A stretch of DNA of 40,740 nt from a virus, in the IMG/VR virus record IMGVR_UViG_3300000234_000011, positions 1 to 40,740 of that record. One strand, written 5' to 3'. The position numbers were made by a program, and so were the translations under genes. The notes beneath the pieces are model-generated. The model saw only the letters and a program-made list of their open reading frames with translations, was not told the DNA's origin and ran no database searches. This document shows positions 22,164 to 40,519 of the stretch, one piece after another. Every line of letters starts with the position of its first letter. The first letter of the stretch is position 1.

Positions 22164-25100
22164 ATGCCTTCTGAAGCAACCCTAAAATATTTGAGAGAAA
22201 TGGAAGCAAAAAAGCCAGTTGCACCAATTGGTATTGGTGCAAGAGTTGCTCCGACAGTACCGCCTGTTTCAACACGTCAATCTTTAGGGATTGACAAGGC
22301 GATAGATTTTCTTGATTCATCTAAACCTTGAAAGCAAGGTGGTTGGGAAGTTGACGCAGGACCATTACATCTTGATTTGTGAGTTCTCCCAAAACGAGCA
22401 TTACAAACCGCATGAAATGTTGTTGATTCTGCGGAGTTGGCAGTTTCGGCGTGAAAAAATATATATCAATGAACTCCAGAGGAGGGAAGTTATTTAGGCG
22501 AAAGTGTAAAACTTGCAAGATGATTGGTTGATACTGCAGAAACAGTATTGTTGCCTTGATTTAATGTTGCAATGTCTGCATTTCAAGATACTTTCCCAGA
22601 CCAAGCAAAGGTTGTTATGGATTTAATGCTTTCTGGTGCTGAATTTGTTTGAAAAAACACACCACTAGTCAACAATTTGCGTGATGAAGTGCCAGAAAAT
22701 ATGCGTCAATATTTTGACTTACTTCTTACTGATTTGATTTTTGAACTTCCAGCTGGTAAAATTGCAACTGCAGGCGTAAAAAGTGTTGTTTGAAAATTAG
22801 GGAAGAATACACCAACTGTTGATACTCCTAAAATTCCAGAAACACCAAAGGTGGATTTTCTGAATAAACAAACACAACAAGTTGATACTATTTTGAGACA
22901 GGAAGTAAACGCCCCTGTTCCAGAAATCAAACCCGAGATAAAACCTTTTGATACTCCACAACAAGTTGTGGGAGATATGACACAAAACATTGACACTACA
23001 AAACAAGTAGATATTCCACAGAAAAAAGCGGAGCCTGTGACTATCCCCGAAAGGAAGATAGCCACCACGGAAGATTTGGCAACGCCGTTTGACAAAAACA
23101 ATCCGTGACACTTATATTTCCAAAAAGTTGCCGAGTGATTAGAGCCAAAACTTACAAAAAAGATTGGCGATTGAGATTTTATTGTGACAAAAAAGGGAGA
23201 ATCGGGAGAAGTGAGGACGACCGATGATTGAAAAGTGTATATTAACACTCCGAAGATTTTGACAAAAAAAGATTCGTTTTGGAGTGAAATCGAAGTAAAA
23301 CCAGAAGACATACACAGAGTGTATAAATACAAGGACGCTCCAGACACTGCATTCCCTACAAAGACTGATACATGGGAAGGGCTGGACGCAACTTTACAAT
23401 CGTTTGTTGATACTGCCAAAAAAACTGATACTTCTGCCAAGAAGTTCGACTTACAGAATTACAAGAAGGCGAAGATTGAACAACTAGGCAAGATGAGCGA
23501 CCAAGATTTGATTAGATATATTGCGTCAAAGAAAGAATCACTTAGTTATGGTTCGGAGTGATTATCTCAAATGGATAAAGCAATTTCGAAATACGACTAT
23601 GAAATTTCTAAAAGAGAAATGAAACGTCGTCTTGATATAAAACGTTACAAAGAAGGTTTAGGAACTATTGATATTATCAAAGCCGTAAACAGGAAAGAAC
23701 TTACAAAATGACAAGGTTTGAAAATTTTCCTTGACAATAAAAAACGCCAGTGGAAAAGTGTTTTTTCTTCTGAAACACTTATGGCAACAGATTATTCTGT
23801 CAAAAAACTTATTCCTGCAATGGGTAGACGTTTGCAACGTGCAACCGTCAATAAGTTTTCAAGGTTACAAAGGGCTTTAGAGCCATTCGAGACATTGAAG
23901 GAGTGACGAAAGGAACGTATCGAAAGACAGAATCGAAAGGAAAATATCCTGTTTTCTAAATGGAGAAAAAAAGGCGAAACACGTGAGAATAATTTCAAAA
24001 CGTGGGTGTATCAAAATGCAAACGAAGGAGTGGAGATGTTGACTGCTCCACAAAGGAAAATCATTGATGACGCATACGTTATGGCACATAACTATGGATT
24101 GCAGTTTTGATATAGAAAGAATTATATACCACAGGCTATTGCCGACGTGGATTGATTGCTTTCTTTTTTGAGAAAAAAGGAGCCAGATATTTTGGCGGAT
24201 ATTGAAGGAATGATAAGAGACATCGAGAAAAAGAACTGAAAGCCGTTTACTGATTTGGAACGTGCAAATTTCATAAATGAGATTTTGCAACAAAATACAA
24301 CTTCTCATCTAAACAATAAGTCTGCGTATTTTTCGCAGTCACAACGTAGAAAAATTACTGAAATGCAATCCGACCTTGCCCCATTCTATCATAATCCATA
24401 CGACAGTATACAAATTTATCTTGACGACTTGTATTCGTCTATCGAACTTATGGAAACGCTTTGATACGGTCCTAAAACTCATAATTTCAAGAGTGTTGCC
24501 GAGATAACACAGACCGACGTAATAAAAAGCGGAGGTTCTGCAAATATCATTTCGTGGATTGATGAAGCCGTGATAAACGGAGATATTACTCCGCAAGTTT
24601 GAAAGAAACTAGAGGAAATCCTTGTCACAAGATTTGCTGACCCTGCTCCTAGGAATCGGTTTGAAAGGAAAATGCCATTTTACAAAACATTGCTTGTTGC
24701 GTTTTCTCTTGCTAACCCTATTTCCGCATTATCTAATATAAAGGACCTTTGAACGTCTTTTTATTGTAATTGATTTCTGAATACAATGGAGGGATTGGCA
24801 AAGTCAATATCTCCTAAAAAGTTACGTGAGAAATTTGATATGGCAATCAAAATGGAAGATTTGGGACTTGAGGTCTTAGATATTGATAATCGTTATAAAC
24901 ATTGATATATAGAAAGGTTTACAAATAGAGTTATGAAAATTTCCTTTTTTAATGTAGCTGATAGACTTTGAAAAGAAGTATATCTCAATGCCTCATACAA
25001 CAAGCGAAAGCAACGAGCGGAGAAAGGGGATAGTCGATATTCTAAAAATATCGAATGACGTACTTTGGAACATGATTTGAAAACAAAGTATTCTATGACC

Positions 25101-26603
25101 GACGCTGAAATTGCAACGTTCAAATCTGATATTTCCCAATGAAAATTGACTGATGATGTAAAATATGTTATTATGACAGATATTGCGAGAGTACAACCAA
25201 TACATAAAAGTGCTATTCCTGCGAATTACAGTAAAACTATTACTGGGCGTATGTTTTATACTTTCAAATTATTCCTAGTAAAGAAATTTGACTTTTATAG
25301 GTCGGAGTTTTTCGATGTTGAACATAAGTCTGTTTCTGAATACGTGAGGAGAGGTGCGAGAGTGATTCGTTATGCTACAATGATGATGGCTATGTGAATG
25401 GCAGTCGATGAGATAAAGGATTGGATTCTTAATAGAAAAACAGCAGTAAGGGACCAACTTGCGTCAAATCTTCTTGAATTGACTTGATTTTCTAAATATT
25501 CGTATTACGTTTTCAAAGAATCAACTGCTCTTGGCGACATCATGAGATATAGAGAAATGGAACAAAAATATTTAGAAAGATGAAAGAAATTTACTGATAA
25601 ACAAGCGTCTGATAAAAGTGTACTTGAAAATATCCGAGGAGTTTGAAAAGGTTTGTGGTCTGTCTTCGGTGTTCCTGCGACACCGTTTACTACTGCAGTT
25701 GATGAATATATCTCGTATAAGGACGCACAAAAGAAAGGAGTTGCTTATGATTTTTCCCAGAGTTACGCAGTATCTCGTTTGCCTGTTCTTTGAAAAACCT
25801 ATTATTGGCTTTTTTGACAATGAGCCGAGAGAACTGCAAAGCAAGAGGAAAAGAGGTCACATACTCCTTGATTTGAAAACAGGACTATACGTGAATTGAT
25901 AAACCCTAACATAAATTTGGACGGCGAACACATGTATTATACGAAGGTTGCAAGGGTTGTTGACGGCGATACTTTGGATTTCAAATTGACTGCACGGGAC
26001 CGTTTCAATGCCATGTCCCGAATGGATTTGATAAGTGGAGAGACACCAAAGCGAATGAGATACGACGAAGAGTTGGGATACCATGCACGTGTGCGTTTCT
26101 TTGGGGTTGATACGCCAGAATCCGTCAAAGTGTGAAACGCAGTACAATACTTTGCGAAAGAAGCAAGTGATTATTCTAAAAAGAATCTTGAATGAAAAAT
26201 GGTTATGATTAAAGGAGATTACATGGCATGACTTGTTGATAATTGAGGGGAACGTCTCGTTTGACAAATAAATACTATTGACGAAGCAAGTGCTTTTCTA
26301 TACAATATCCCATATTTGAGAAACGCTTTGACGTATGAGGACTTCAATAAAAGGCTTGTGCAATTATGATATGGAAAAGTTACAGGAAGTTTTCCATACT
26401 CACAAATGGAATTGTATTACAATATCCAAGAAGCTGTACAAGCAAGAGGCGAAGGCGTACGAGACAGAGACGCAGAAAAGATGTATAACATCTTGCATGA
26501 TGTGCCTTTGGACCAACAACAAACAACGTATAAATACGACCCTAAAACAAAACAAGCTAATACGTACGTGCCTGCAAAAAGAGCGAATTATACTGCAAAA
26601 TAA
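22164..26603 (+). CDS. Giant internal/ejection-type protein with C-terminal staphylococcal nuclease domain
   Basis: ATG 22164 to TAA 26601-26603; 1479 residues in one frame once TGA is read as Gly. Residues 1-600 contain Gly/Ala-rich hydrophobic stretches (about 115-220) and low-complexity Pro/Gln/Lys segments. The middle is long and helical. Residues about 1257-1440 form an SNase domain: KVARVVDGDTLDFKL (Ca-binding Asp residues), RVRFFGVDTPES (catalytic Arg and D-T-P-E), a NGGERLVG segment with the second Arg, and GYGKV near the end. Long multi-domain proteins at this place in podoviruses are usually ejected with the DNA. A fused nuclease is unusual. Confidence 0.8.
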
Positions 26604-30468: not shown

Positions 30469-31815
30469 ATGGCAAAAGAAAAAATTTTGAGGCAATCACG
30501 GTTCAACAATAATGTTGCAACACCAGTTGAAACAATCCCTGCCAATTTTGTCTCTATCTATATCAAAAACCTAAAGCTATACAAAAAAATTGCTGACACA
30601 GAGTATCCAATCGAAATGCCAATGCTAAATTTAGGAGAAATTGCAGTACACAATGGCACACAGATTGTTGCTATGGCTAAAGGAACGAATTGACAACGCC
30701 TTGCGGTTGTTGCGGGTTCTCCTAATGGTATTGCATATTTGGACGAATTTATGTTTACCGCAACAGGTATCGCAGGCGAGGCAATTCCTAACCGTTCTCC
30801 AGTGAGAATGGGAGTTTTGTCACTCGGGGAAGATGTGACAAAAATATATAATTGTGACGCTTCGGACCCTCTACAAATCGGATTTATCGGATTTGCTTAT
30901 ACTGCATACAATACTGGCGACCAGATGACAGTATTACAGGGACCAAGAGTGGACGGATTCACTGGACTAGTGGATTTAGACGATTACTTTTTGGCAAATG
31001 GTGGAGGTATTGCAAACACTCCTTGAACAAATGTATTCCAAGTTGGAACTGCCGACGGTACAACTGCTATTGCAGGGGTAAGGGCTCAAACAACTTTGAA
31101 AGAATACATTGAGACAACAGTATTTGAGACAATAACTGTCGAAAATCTACTTGTCAATGAAATTACATATTTCGATATGAAAGGAGTTGCTGGCGAAACT
31201 TTGGCTTTCCTTGACCCAGTAAGAATGGGAGTATTGGCACTTGCGGAAGATGTAAACAAAGTATATAGATGTGACGCTTCTAATATAAATAAACTAGGAT
31301 TCATTGGATTTGCTAGTAGAGATTATGCAGTTGGCGAAGAAGTTGTTGCATTGCAAGGTCCTAGGGTAGAATGATTTACTGGACTTGTCGACGGCGACGA
31401 TTATTTCCTTGCAAATGGTGGTGGTATCTCAAACACTGCTTGAACAAATGTTGTGAAAGTATGAGTTGCTGACGGTACAACTGCATTGGTTGGTGTCCGT
31501 GGTGCTGATTCAAACAACAATTACCTTGAAATCAACGGGCAATCGGTTACTATAAACACACCAGTGATATATGCGAATCCATGAGACTGTATTGTGTTCT
31601 TAACAATGACATCTGATTGCACAGTGTATTTGCCTTTTGGTTCCGCTAACACAACAATATCTGTCAAAAAAAGAACTGGCGAACATGTGTATAAAGTAAA
31701 TATCGTACCTACCGCAGGACAGACTTTAGAAGAAAACCCAGACGGAGGATATATTGATATTTCAGACACAGAAAGAAGGTTTATCTATATTGGTACTACA
31801 TACGAAGTCTTTTAA
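30469..31815 (+). CDS. Fibre-type structural protein with duplicated module, 448 aa
   Basis: ATG 30469 to TAA; several TGA glycines. The N-terminus (MAKEKILRQSRFNNNVATPVETIPANFVSIYIKNLKLYKK) resembles that of the preceding fibre, suggesting a shared attachment part. Two copies of a module with the core SPVRMGVLSLGEDVTKIYNCDAS, IGFIGFA, LQGPRV and TGLVDLDDYFLANGGGI occupy about residues 90-310. The C-terminus ends with RRFIYIGTTYEVF. Probable tail or capsid decoration fibre. Confidence 0.65.
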
Positions 31816-34868: not shown

Positions 34869-34921
34869 TATGTAGTGGAACTCCCTTTATAGTCTTCTTG
34901 CATATACACAAAGAATGCCCT

Positions 34922-34950
34922 ACCATGTACGTCAATACATGGTTTTTTTT
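34922..34950 (+). terminator. Rho-independent terminator of the second structured RNA
   Basis: ACCATGTA-CGTCAA-TACATGGT, a perfect 8-bp stem, followed by a T-run. Confidence 0.85.
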
Positions 34951-34952
34951 AC

Positions 34953-34980
34953 TTGCAAAAAAACTTTATATCGGTATACT
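34953..34980 (+). promoter_or_regulatory. Lysis-cassette promoter
   Basis: TTGCAA (34953-34958), 16-base spacer, TATACT (34975-34980), right after the terminator and 30 bases before the holin start. Same hexamers as the leftward early promoters, so host RNA polymerase probably reads it. Confidence 0.7.
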
Positions 34981-35010
34981 CCAGTATCTTTTATCCTATT
35001 TCTTAATGCT

Positions 35011-35274
35011 ATGGAAGATATGAAAGAACTACTTATTATTGCCCCTTTTGCTTCTGCAATTATTTCTATATTGATTCAAGTATTGAAGTCTGTAATTGGA
35101 GACAATGGCAAAAAGTTTATACCTGTATTTGCAGTTATTGTCGGGATTCTTTCCTCTTTACTAGTGAATTATGGGCGAGCTTTAGGGCTTAATGTAATGC
35201 AATCAATCGTTGCATGAATCATTCTTTGAGGTACTGCCGTATGATTCTACGAATTTACTAAACTTCGTAAATAA
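35011..35274 (+). CDS. Holin
   Basis: ATG 35011 to TAA 35272-35274; 87 residues. Two to three hydrophobic segments are visible: LLIIAPFASAIISILIQVLKSVI, KFIPVFAVIVGILSSLLVNYG, and VMQSIVAGIILGGTAVGFYEFTKL, where TGA supplies several glycines of the last helix. Size, topology and the 'G-I-LGGTAVG-YEFTK' ending fit phage holins that open the membrane for the endolysin. TTTTATC precedes the start; the next gene overlaps the stop (TAATG). Confidence 0.8.
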
Positions 35275-35468
35275 TGGCTTCGCCAGAACGAACACAGAAG
35301 GGACCTAATGATTTTCCTTCTTTCGGAAAATTTATTGATTACTGCAAAACTGTAGCAATGCGAATGTATGACCTTTTTATCAATAACCGCCAAAATGAGG
35401 ATAATTGACACGATAGTGGTACATCACTCGGTAACCCCGAGAGACCAAACACTACAAAAAAGTCTTAG
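35274..35468 (+). CDS. Small overlapping lysis-cassette protein, 64 aa
   Basis: ATG overlaps the holin stop (TAATG); ends TAG 35466-35468, so its last 74 bases overlap the amidase gene in another frame. The product (MASPERTQKGPNDFPSFGKFIDYCKTVAMRMYDLFINNRQNEDNGHD...) has an amphipathic middle. Without it the 120 bases between holin and amidase would be empty. It may be a lysis accessory, but it could also be a chance frame. Confidence 0.45.
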
Positions 35469-36036
35469 TTCTTTTAGTAACTCGCACAAAGCAAGGTTAC
35501 ACCCCACTGTAAATTCTTTGGGCTATCATATTGCATATCATTATGTAATATGAGGCGACGGAACTATTGCACACACGAGAGCTGACGGCGATATATGATT
35601 CCATGCGGGTACTTTGGTCGGCAATGGGAAGACCATGAATGCAAGGAGTATTGGTATTTGTCTTGTTGGAAATTTTGACAAAGAAGTACCTAGTCCAGAA
35701 CAATACACAAGTTTGTATGCACTTATTGAAGAACTCAAAAAAAAGTATAAAATTACGAAAGTAATTTGACACAACGAAGTTGACGGGGTTTCCAAATCTT
35801 GCCCATGAAAAAACTTCGATTTTAGCCATATAAACAATAGTACAATGCCAAAAGACAAAATGGATATGCTTGTGATTTCTTCTTTGTGTTTGAATAGCAA
35901 TTTATACGATATTCTCGACAATCTCGGATTGACGGATACACAAGTAAAATCTTTGCGTGAGTTGTTACAAACAATTAACGAAACACGAGACGCTTGTTGA
36001 TACAATCACAGAATGCACCCTTTACTAAAAAAGTAG
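35395..36036 (+). CDS. Endolysin: N-acetylmuramoyl-L-alanine amidase (Amidase_2)
   Basis: ATG 35395 to TAG 36034-36036; 213 residues. Zinc ligands fit the T7 lysozyme/AmpD family: H10 in VVHHSVT, H126 in GHNEV, C136 in CPGKNF. YHYVIGGDGTIAHTRADGDIGFHAGTLVGNG and SIGICLVGNFD are also typical. Glycines of YVIGGDG, DIGFHAG, IGHNEV and CPGKNF are TGA, which fixes the codon meaning. A short helical C-terminus (LGLTDTQVKSLRELLQTINETRDA) follows. It cleaves the amide bond between muramic acid and the peptide. ATG 35368 is an alternative start, but TTTTATC lies 13 bases before ATG 35395. Confidence 0.9.
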
Positions 36037-38838: not shown

Positions 38839-39159
38839 TTAAACTTTTGTTGCTTTTATTCCTTTAATTTCAACTGTCTCCGTGATACTTCTTTTTATAT
38901 TCTCTTTGTCGACCTCTCGAAGTACCGCAAGATTTTTTGCCTTTTTCTCTACAAAATCGGGGTGCTTCTTTTCTAGGTCGGCAATTGCTCCAATGTATTT
39001 GTATGTCTTGCAGTTTTTCCTTTTTACTGTGATTCCTCCCATATCTATATTGACGAAGTTTTCATCTGCCAGTATTTCCGCTTTCATTGCTTCGTATGTT
39101 GCTTTTGCTGTTTCCAACTCAACATATGCCTCTACTAACTCTTGTATTTTTTCGTTCAT
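38839..39159 (-). CDS. Hypothetical protein, 106 aa
   Basis: ATG 39159 overlaps the upstream stop (TAATG); ends TAA 38839-38841; no TGA. A helical N-terminus (MNEKIQELVEAYVELETAKATYEAMKAEIL) is followed by a beta region VNIDMGGITVKRKNCKTYKYIGAIADLEKKHPDFVEKKAKNLAVLREVDKENIKRSITETVEIKG. The layout resembles small phage proteins linked to DNA metabolism, but no family was recognised. Confidence 0.6.
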   Translation of the reverse strand: MNEKIQELVEAYVELETAKATYEAMKAEILADENFVNIDMGGITVKRKNCKTYKYIGAIADLEKKHPDFVEKKAKNLAVLREVDKENIKRSITETVEIKGIKATKV

Positions 39160-39380
39160 TATGTGTCTTTTGTTAAAAAATGAAACGTAACTCTTCCTGT
39201 CTCTACCGAAACTTCTTTTGCAACATTATTTATCAACTTCCCCATAAGTATGTCTTTTTTGTTCCTTATATCTGCTACCATCTCTTCTATCTTATCATTG
39301 ACTATTTTTTCTGCATATTCATTAAATATATGCATTACGTCTTTTTCTATATCTATCTCAAACTTTGTAAGTTGTGCCAT
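39159..39380 (-). CDS. Hypothetical protein, 73 aa
   Basis: ATG 39380 to TAA 39159-39161, no TGA. The product (MAQLTKFEIDIEKDVMHIFNEYAEKIVNDKIEEMVADIRNKKDILMGKLINNVAKEVSVETGRVTFHF) is mostly helical with a short beta end. It starts four bases before the end of the transglycosylase frame and is coupled to the following gene. Function unknown. Confidence 0.6.
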   Translation of the reverse strand: MAQLTKFEIDIEKDVMHIFNEYAEKIVNDKIEEMVADIRNKKDILMGKLINNVAKEVSVETGRVTFHFLTKDT

Positions 39381-39383
39381 ACC

Positions 39384-40405
39384 CTAGTGAAGTCAAAGAC
39401 TAAAACCATTTTTTGCAATCTTTTTTGCATACCAATCTGGATACGCAAATCCGTTGTGATTTGACAAACATTGTTGCCAATTGGAAATATATCAATCTTC
39501 CCCAATACTACAATCGTACGCTTCTTCGATTCTTATATACAACATTCTTGTACTACAAAGATAATCTTTTGCACAATCAACATACGACATTCCGAACTCT
39601 TCCGTATCCTTTCTAGTTCAGACACATTGATTGAATTGATATGCCCCAAACGAACATCAAGCGTCGCCGATTGCTCGTGGATTCCTTATATTCTCCGCTA
39701 GTCCTACTGTCGCTCCGTAGTATTCCGATAGTCAATACTCATCTGACACTTGCACAAGGGCTGTCGCCATTTCTGGGTGTACCCCTGCGTCAATAAGATG
39801 TTGTACTCTATCTGGATTTACTGCAGTTTTAAGAGGTGCGAGAGGAGCAACCTTTTTCTTTTGTGGTTGCGGTTTTGTCTTCGGTTGCTCCTCTTTTGCT
39901 CCAGCTATAAACCCAAGCTTTCACTTGCATATTTGTAGCTGTACTTTGATTTCTCTACAGTTTCCCTCATTGTTCTATATTGCCCGATTTTCTCGTCAAT
40001 AGCTTTTATTTCACTCATTACACCAGTGTTTACGACTTCTTCATACTTCCCATAATAGAAGGCGACACTGTCCGAAAGATTCAACTCTTTTACAAGTTGT
40101 TCTTTTCTTGCGGATAATTCCATTTGCAAACGATAGAGTTCGACTTCGTCCGTGATAGGCTTTTCTTCTACTGCTCCGCTTTGCAATGCCATTTGTTGTG
40201 ATTCTATCACTTGCAATGCGTTGTTGTACTTTGCTTCGAGTTCTGCAACTTTTGCTTCGATAGGGTCGGGTGCTTTCTCTCCGCTTCCTATCAATAAGTA
40301 AATAATCAACACTGCAAACACTATCCCCCCAATCAATACTGGGATATTAAACTTCTTTTTCCCAATTTTACTATTCAATCTCTCAATTTGTGCGGTTTCA
40401 TCCAT
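39384..40405 (-). CDS. Membrane-anchored lytic transglycosylase-like protein made by -1 frameshift
   Basis: Frame 0 runs from ATG 40405 to TAG 39905-39907; frame -1 continues to TAG 39384-39386. A slip on GGGTTTA (39914-39908) joins them into a 340-residue protein. It has an N-terminal membrane helix (NIPVLIGGIVFAVLIIYLLIGSG), a coiled coil, a Lys/Pro/Gln linker, then a lysozyme-fold domain with VGLAENIRNPRAIGDAGCSFGAYQFNQC, the E...G--G-S-G-YQ pattern of SLT-type transglycosylases, and several Cys. Three or more of its glycines are TGA. The -1 frame has no usable start codon upstream of the domain, supporting frameshift expression. It would cleave glycan strands at the membrane. Confidence 0.7.
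39841..39914 (-). promoter_or_regulatory. Programmed -1 frameshift signal
   Basis: On the minus strand the slippery heptamer G GGT TTA (39914-39908), in the X XXY YYZ pattern, is directly followed by the frame-0 stop TAG. After a 13-base spacer, AGAGGAGCAACC (39894-39883) pairs with GGTTGCTCCTCT (39852-39841), a perfect 12-bp stem with a 30-base loop. Heptamer, stop and stimulatory stem together are the standard layout; the spacer is somewhat longer than the usual 5-9 bases. Confidence 0.8.
39905..40405 (-). CDS. Membrane coiled-coil protein, 166 aa (frame-0 product)
   Basis: ATG 40405 to TAG 39905-39907. The product has a basic N-terminus (MDETAQIERLNSKIGKKKF), one membrane helix (about residues 21-43) and a long coiled coil (IEAKVAELEAKYNNALQVIESQQMALQ... 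TMRETVEKSKYSYKYASESLGL). It is the non-shifted product and could form mixed oligomers with the longer transglycosylase form. TTTTATT lies 16 bases before ATG 40405, supporting this start over a GTG at 40474. Confidence 0.7.
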   Translation of the reverse strand: MDETAQIERLNSKIGKKKFNIPVLIGGIVFAVLIIYLLIGSGEKAPDPIEAKVAELEAKYNNALQVIESQQMALQSGAVEEKPITDEVELYRLQMELSARKEQLVKELNLSDSVAFYYGKYEEVVNTGVMSEIKAIDEKIGQYRTMRETVEKSKYSYKYASESLGL

Positions 40406-40519
40406 GTCTGTATATAACAAAAATAAAACGGCTAGTTGATTTTGCGGTTTGACAATGTTGTTTCCTCTTGTCACAGTAGTTACTGGTTTGTTATGTTGCC
40501 TTAGCCAGTCGGCTAGATA
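40406..40519 (-). other. Gap without convincing gene
   Basis: This 114-base gap holds a small hairpin (TAGCC-GACT-GGCTA family, about 40498-40516) and the TTTTATT element of the following gene. A reading frame continuing from the upstream TAA stop through to the next ATG is open, but it has only a GTG (40474) as start. Confidence 0.5.

Follow-up and report, generated by a model that had tools for sequence, protein, structure and literature searches.

How does a phage produce a putative cell-wall enzyme from an open reading frame (ORF) that provides no start codon ahead of the enzyme domain and that opens at the point where an upstream ORF for a membrane coiled coil reaches its stop codon? This question is raised by a minus-strand locus in a viral sequence record 40,740 bases long, the whole of which is called the window here, and for which an initial annotation had proposed a programmed -1 frameshift. 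To our knowledge, the tailed-phage genes in which programmed frameshifting has been recognised are mainly those for structural proteins and tail assembly. The window carries a direct terminal repeat of 72 bp and is therefore probably complete. While it shows few long ORFs in the standard code, it is full of long ORFs if TGA is read as glycine, and TGA accounts for 174 of the 578 glycine codons in the confident genes. Translation of UGA as glycine is known from uncultured CPR bacteria, in which decoding is hard to study. The structural genes lie on the plus strand and the minus strand contains a module that continues across the ends of the record and to which the locus described here belongs, and an ordinary lysis cassette, consisting of a holin-like gene (34915-35274) and an amidase gene (35368-36036), is found elsewhere in the window. 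Two further features were observed, namely a virion-type protein of 1479 aa (22164-26603) that has, close to its C-terminus, a domain resembling staphylococcal nuclease (PF00565, E 1.3e-8), and two direct repeats (76% identity over 135 nt and 73% over 99 nt) in the region 30765-31484 of the ORF 30469-31815, both spaced 417 nt, which indicates an internal domain duplication.

Two reading frames and the change between them

The frame-0 ORF encodes a short basic N-terminus, a single transmembrane segment and a long, charged, helical and coiled-coil-like part that runs up to the stop (Table 1). An N-in, C-out topology is inferred by the positive-inside rule from the residues KIGKKK preceding the transmembrane segment. 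The -1 frame was claimed to be open for 522 bases without a start codon before the enzyme domain, and both statements hold: with TGA as glycine it is open from 39908 to 39387 (174 codons), and the first ATG, GTG or TTG is the ATG at 39770, which lies 46 codons in, at the first predicted helix. A log-odds model of codon usage, for which genes of this phage served as training set, placed the best position for a switch of frame at 39925-39907, that is at the heptamer. Moreover, the Lys/Pro-rich linker scores as coding in the -1 frame throughout, upstream of the ATG at 39770, so that translation starting from this ATG cannot reach it.

Genes of the window are preceded by a start signature, TTTTA, which is present at -36 to -14 in 24 of 34 gene starts compared to 7.6% of all ATGs, with observed positions from -17 to -35 and mostly from -19 to -27. 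This signature is absent from the ATG at 39770. It is seen upstream of, e.g., 6169, 13265, 29332, 39380 and 40405, a Shine-Dalgarno sequence is not evident, and the motif could be a promoter or a ribosome-binding element. It also occurs in relatives with TGA as glycine (26-61% of ATG genes versus 4-9% of all ATGs), and two related phages, G053 and G065, show no such signature. The C-terminal part contains six cysteines in 174 residues compared to 0.8% in the phage proteome, a content that suits an extracytoplasmic domain, from which we infer the need for an upstream anchor.

Table 1. Positions of the elements of the proposed frameshift locus in the window.
Feature	Position	Strand	Basis
TTTTA motif, 23 nt upstream of ATG 40405	40424..40428	-	Start signature of genes of this phage
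Frame-0 ORF, 166 aa, from ATG 40405 to TAG	39905..40405	-	Translation; frame-0 coding potential as far as the heptamer
Transmembrane segment, residues 21-40, IPVLIGGIVFAVLIIYLLIG	40286..40345	-	Translation; hydropathy maximum 2.93
Slippery heptamer G_GGT_TTA (GGGTTTA), in phase with frame 0	39908..39914	-	Same heptamer at the G070 and G068 junctions
Frame-0 stop TAG, directly after the heptamer	39905..39907	-	Sequence, translation
-1 frame ORF, 174 codons and TAG (39386-39384): Lys/Pro-rich linker, then Cys-rich lysozyme/SLT-like domain	39384..39908	-	-1 coding signal starting at the heptamer
Linker, IAGAKEEQPKTKPQPQKKKVAPLAPL...	39771..39908	-	-1 codon log-odds positive over 39895-39775; precedes ATG 39770, the sole internal ATG
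5' arm of the 12-bp stem, AGAGGAGCAACC	39883..39894	-	12 perfect pairs
3' arm of the 12-bp stem, GGTTGCTCCTCT	39841..39852	-	12 perfect pairs
Candidate catalytic Glu (LAEN), aligned with the relatives' invariant Glu	39693..39695	-	Alignment A8; catalytic role inferred
Motif RNPRAIGDAGCSFGAYQFN, common to the relatives' enzymes and tail lysozymes	39630..39686	-	Alignment A8, BLASTP, pattern matches
Next gene of the leftward module	39159..39380	-	Own TTTTA start signature at -25

Slip site, stop codon and downstream stem

The frame-0 end reads AGC TTG GGT TTA TAG, so that the heptamer stands in the X_XXY_YYZ phase and touches the stop codon, exactly as annotated initially. The perfect stem of 12 bp that had been noted 13 bases downstream was likewise found, with a loop of 30 nt. 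In the predicted fold four extra pairs are added and pairing begins 5 nt past the heptamer, giving a z of -4.8 against shuffles, and of -2.4 when a wider segment is folded. Only three perfect 12-bp stems with loops of at most 40 nt exist in the window, where about 0.2 are expected, and such a stem arose in one of 2000 trials in which the linker was re-coded with the phage's own codon usage while its amino acids were kept. A slippery heptamer stands directly before 0.7% of stop triplets. For the junction, the peptide ESLGFIAGAK had been put forward; it is possible, but so is ESLGLIAGAK, and which of them is made is decided by the tRNA that slips. The junction is free of UGA codons, which makes direct testing in Escherichia coli possible.

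Other roles of these elements were considered. A function of the stem as terminator is not favoured, as no T-run follows it on the minus strand; transcriptional slippage is unlikely at a junction without a long homopolymer; and stop-codon readthrough was rejected since frame 0 carries no coding signal past the TAG. A search of Rfam returned no credible match.

Phages that split the gene at the same heptamer

Phages with TGA as glycine were gathered by searches with terminase and capsid proteins, and a terminase profile gave no match in GTDB genomes. Direct searches with either half of the gene found no useful relative, short matches of 22 residues (L002 and L003) were discarded, and a narrow pattern around GDxGCSFGxYQF remained without match. 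Informative relatives were obtained with the relaxed DNA pattern [ND]Pxx[VI]GDxGx[SA][FY]GxxQ[FIM]N, in which TGA was allowed as glycine and which matched four phages with TGA as glycine (G004 with its near-copy G005, G068, G069 and G070) together with several tail lysozymes.

Two of these phages, G070 (IMG/VR 3300021400_000008, 41,500 bp) and G068 (IMG/VR 3300021256_000251, 32,687 bp), originate from separate metagenomes. Their enzyme ORFs contain neither a membrane segment nor a start codon before or near the junction, and in G068 the first possible start in the enzyme frame, a TTG, falls within the catalytic region. In both, a membrane/coiled-coil ORF occupies the reading frame one base ahead, and this ORF ends in G070 with GAG GGT TTA AAC TAG, the heptamer being 3 nt before the stop, and in G068 with GAG GGT TTA ATC AAG AAC AGA TAA, the heptamer being 12 nt before the stop. 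Other in-phase slip sites exist at these junctions (an overlapping TTTAAAC in G070 and A_AAA_AAA in G068), and GGGTTTA is the only one common to all; the points at which codon usage switches are compatible with the heptamer in both phages but broad. The enzyme parts of the window and G070 are 24-30% identical, and the coiled-coil parts of the window and the split relatives cannot be aligned. The split gene of G070 and G068 lies near an ERF recombinase gene in a DNA-metabolism module.

When the fetched DNA of phages with TGA as glycine was scanned, 43 ORFs qualified as candidates by carrying a heptamer in phase together with a -1 frame that stays open for at least 90 codons. The first start in the -1 frame was more than 100 nt past the stop in only three of them, namely the window, G070 and G068, all of which use GGGTTTA. 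Among the other candidates, most were either normal pairs of genes or spurious ORFs that overlap a longer gene possessing a start of its own. The hexamer GGGTTT is found in phase once in 27,565 codons of these phages. If shared ancestry is ignored, a single hexamer would be common to all three overlaps with a probability of about 2e-5, and GGGTTT in particular with one of about 1.5e-10. These split examples are three only, all of them from metagenome assemblies. The initial annotation had proposed conservation in related phages as a check, which G070 and G068 pass for the heptamer and the split but not for the stem: folding of their downstream sequences is weak and does not surpass that of shuffled ones (z -1.4 and 0.1), so that only the window has the strong stem.

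Nature of the C-terminal domain

The C-terminal domain had been described as SLT/lysozyme-like, and this is upheld by motif and by family links that run through the relatives, but no Pfam model recognises the copy in the window, including PF01464 and PF18013 of the SLT/phage lysozyme superfamily, and PF05497. A glutamate and the motif GDxGxxxGxxQxN are common to the domain and its relatives (alignment A8). A profile of four relatives has the -1 frame ORF as its best match in the window at E 0.2, and the same profile reaches tail lysozyme/SLT proteins at E 0.0018, which in turn match PF18013 at 3e-12 and PF01464 at 6e-5. A single-sequence AlphaFold model of the product of the window was too poor for use. 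The model of the G070 domain (pLDDT 76) has viral fold matches that are mostly SLT/LT_GEWL proteins, none with an E below 0.001, and no match in the PDB. A resemblance to i-type lysozymes (Destabilase, PF05497) is not supported, as this Pfam model gave no match. Judged from sequence comparison, the domain may thus be called lysozyme/SLT-like, supported only at the level of family and motif, and it is not a proven member; its catalytic activity is inferred.

One-frame relatives and other anchored wall enzymes

The relative G004 (39,984 bp) contains a single ORF (L012:14688-15218) in which a transmembrane segment is followed by NPxxVGDxGxxYGxxQxN, and G069 (L136) likewise combines a membrane segment and the enzyme in one frame. 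Relatives with both parts in one frame had been named as a case that would refute the frameshift; they exist, but do not refute it, given the GGGTTTA junctions in other phages. Taken together, the one-frame genes and these junctions indicate that the fusion is the conserved, functional product.

Further relatives possess anchored wall enzymes of other families in one frame: G063 a DPBB/RlpA-type enzyme above Pfam's cut-off for DPBB_1, and G053 and G065 proteins with weak glucosaminidase-like matches, that of G053 having a coiled-coil-like stalk. Such anchored enzymes of unrelated families are encoded by one ORF each at L122:44-511 (-), L120:5179-6105 (+) and L123:15074-15703 (-), as if different enzymes fill one functional slot. 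An anchored wall enzyme thus recurs in these phages and appears to be made through a -1 shift in some members with TGA as glycine. The terminases of G053 (L119-L120) and G065/G060 (L123-L127) are 46-48% identical to that of the window and many of their ORFs have few or no TGA codons; the occurrence of such phages beside those with TGA as glycine suggests that the genetic code may differ within this phage family.

Alternative explanations

The existence of one-frame relatives is also the point from which two alternatives can be argued. The two frames would become continuous if the run of GGG or TTT were longer by a single base, so that the junction could be an assembly or sequencing indel in a gene that is in reality continuous as in G004 and G069. 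However, two phages from separate metagenomes are split alike at the same heptamer, and an indel is not expected exactly on an in-phase heptamer beside a stop codon and ahead of a strong stem, which makes an assembly error at the junction of the window very unlikely. That a recent frameshift mutation inactivated a former one-frame gene is scarcely credible, since coding signal and open reading are retained in both frames and the same split recurs at the same heptamer in two divergent phages. Alternatively, two proteins could be made, the enzyme being produced separately by termination-reinitiation at the stop (e.g., at the AUA 39908-39906) or from the internal ATG at 39770, a start that would preserve the greater part of the domain together with the Glu and the GDxG motif. 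We hold this to be improbable: the -1 frame is coding for the 46 codons before this ATG, which lacks the start signature, an enzyme made by itself would, despite being rich in cysteine, lack both a signal and an anchor, the first possible start of G068 lies inside the catalytic region, and neither reinitiation nor an internal start explains the common GGGTTTA.

A different objection accepts the frameshift and questions the enzyme. No Pfam family matches the domain, the three models for wall enzymes all miss it, and its best sequence match of solved structure is OmpX, an unrelated beta-barrel (E 0.002). The latter involves one protein only and the domain is predicted to be helical, and we attribute it to chance. 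On the other side stand the shared Glu and GDxGxxxGxxQxN, the path of the relatives' profile to tail lysozyme/SLT proteins that match PF18013 and PF01464, the mostly SLT/LT_GEWL fold matches of the relative's model, even though none is significant, and the membrane-anchored wall enzymes of other families in other relatives, of which one is above the DPBB_1 cut-off. It is therefore unlikely that the domain is not a cell-wall enzyme, although this objection cannot be dismissed.

Proposed mechanism and role

We consider it highly probable that the locus is one gene which is read by programmed -1 frameshifting to fuse a membrane coiled coil to a lysozyme/SLT-like domain, resulting in an anchored cell-wall enzyme. 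The computational basis consists of the reading frames, the switch of frame at the heptamer, the finding that no start signal serves the enzyme, and the presence of the same split at GGGTTTA in two further phages, while slippage itself and its frequency are inferred without a measurement. In most cases translation would end at the TAG, yielding a membrane protein whose coiled coil is extracytoplasmic. The remaining ribosomes, a minority, would slip back by one base on G_GGT_TTA, probably helped by the downstream stem in the phage of the window, and would read the linker and then the Cys-rich domain. The anchored enzyme would then make up a fixed proportion of the product and would probably form mixed oligomers together with the version that lacks the enzyme. 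As the enzyme by itself is without a start, a signal and an anchor, slippage would determine its dose and at the same time tie it to the anchor.

The roles of the shifted and unshifted products can only be inferred. Most likely is a limited opening of the wall by a tethered hydrolase early or midway in infection, or an accessory function in lysis, as the holin-amidase cassette is separate and the gene lies outside of it, with DNA-metabolism genes in G070 and G068. More specifically, in phages whose hosts read UGA as glycine the frameshift might set the ratio of the coiled-coil protein to a small hydrolase-bearing fraction, with mixed oligomers limiting and placing peptidoglycan cutting in the course of infection, a proposal that we find plausible and put forward only tentatively, being not quite persuaded of it.

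Comparison with known systems

Among the formal analogues are the tail assembly chaperones of the lambda G/GT type, in which a tailed-phage gene also yields a major short and a minor long product by a -1 slip on X_XXY_YYZ; in contrast, the product here is a membrane coiled coil with a wall enzyme rather than a tail assembly factor, and the gene is situated among genes for DNA metabolism instead of between tail genes. In MS2 a lysis-related product is also reached from an upstream reading frame, and an early proposal of frameshifting, from 1982, appears among the references of a large review of frameshifting (PMC5009743). The MS2 lysis protein is made by termination-reinitiation at an overlapping frame and is a separate small protein, not a fusion. 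The unshifted product resembles Rz-type i-spanins in having an N-terminal membrane segment and an extracytoplasmic coiled coil, but the comparison with this family gave no significant match (PHROG 739, E 0.066 only) and no o-spanin partner was noticed. In the one-frame genes of G004 and G069, which also come from phages with TGA as glycine, an enzyme belonging to the same motif family likewise follows a transmembrane segment, but these genes require no frameshift and lack a long coiled coil like that of the window. The gag-pol slip site of the yeast L-A totivirus is GGGUUUA (PMC8780742), and there too a scaffold-type protein that is produced in excess acquires an enzyme through the extension; however, L-A is a dsRNA virus of yeast with unrelated proteins and eukaryotic ribosomes, so that only the use of the heptamer is convergent.

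The initial annotation knew of no phage lysis or entry enzyme made in this way. Literature searches that paired frameshifting with endolysin, lytic transglycosylase, lysozyme, spanin or holin also returned no frameshift-made phage wall enzyme, as far as the texts were available, and this absence is not proof of novelty. Neither the accessible part of a large review of frameshifting (PMC5009743) nor a prokaryotic survey (PMC3711429) mentions a lysozyme, endolysin or transglycosylase, and a study of Gracilibacteria phages mentions neither frameshifting nor lysins (PMC10746230).

Implications

Standard gene callers would report such a gene as a truncated coiled coil and a start-less fragment, so that more cases may be hidden. 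The slip site has been kept across phages in which the proteins diverged almost beyond recognition, and the locus appears to be an example in which a translation system that reads UGA as glycine employs ribosomal slippage as a genetic device. Here, the frameshift appears to control a cell-wall enzyme and its anchoring, and if the proposed setting of the ratio in mixed oligomers is true, these phages would possess a recoding-based control of the dose of a muralytic enzyme that is distinct from holin-gated lysis.
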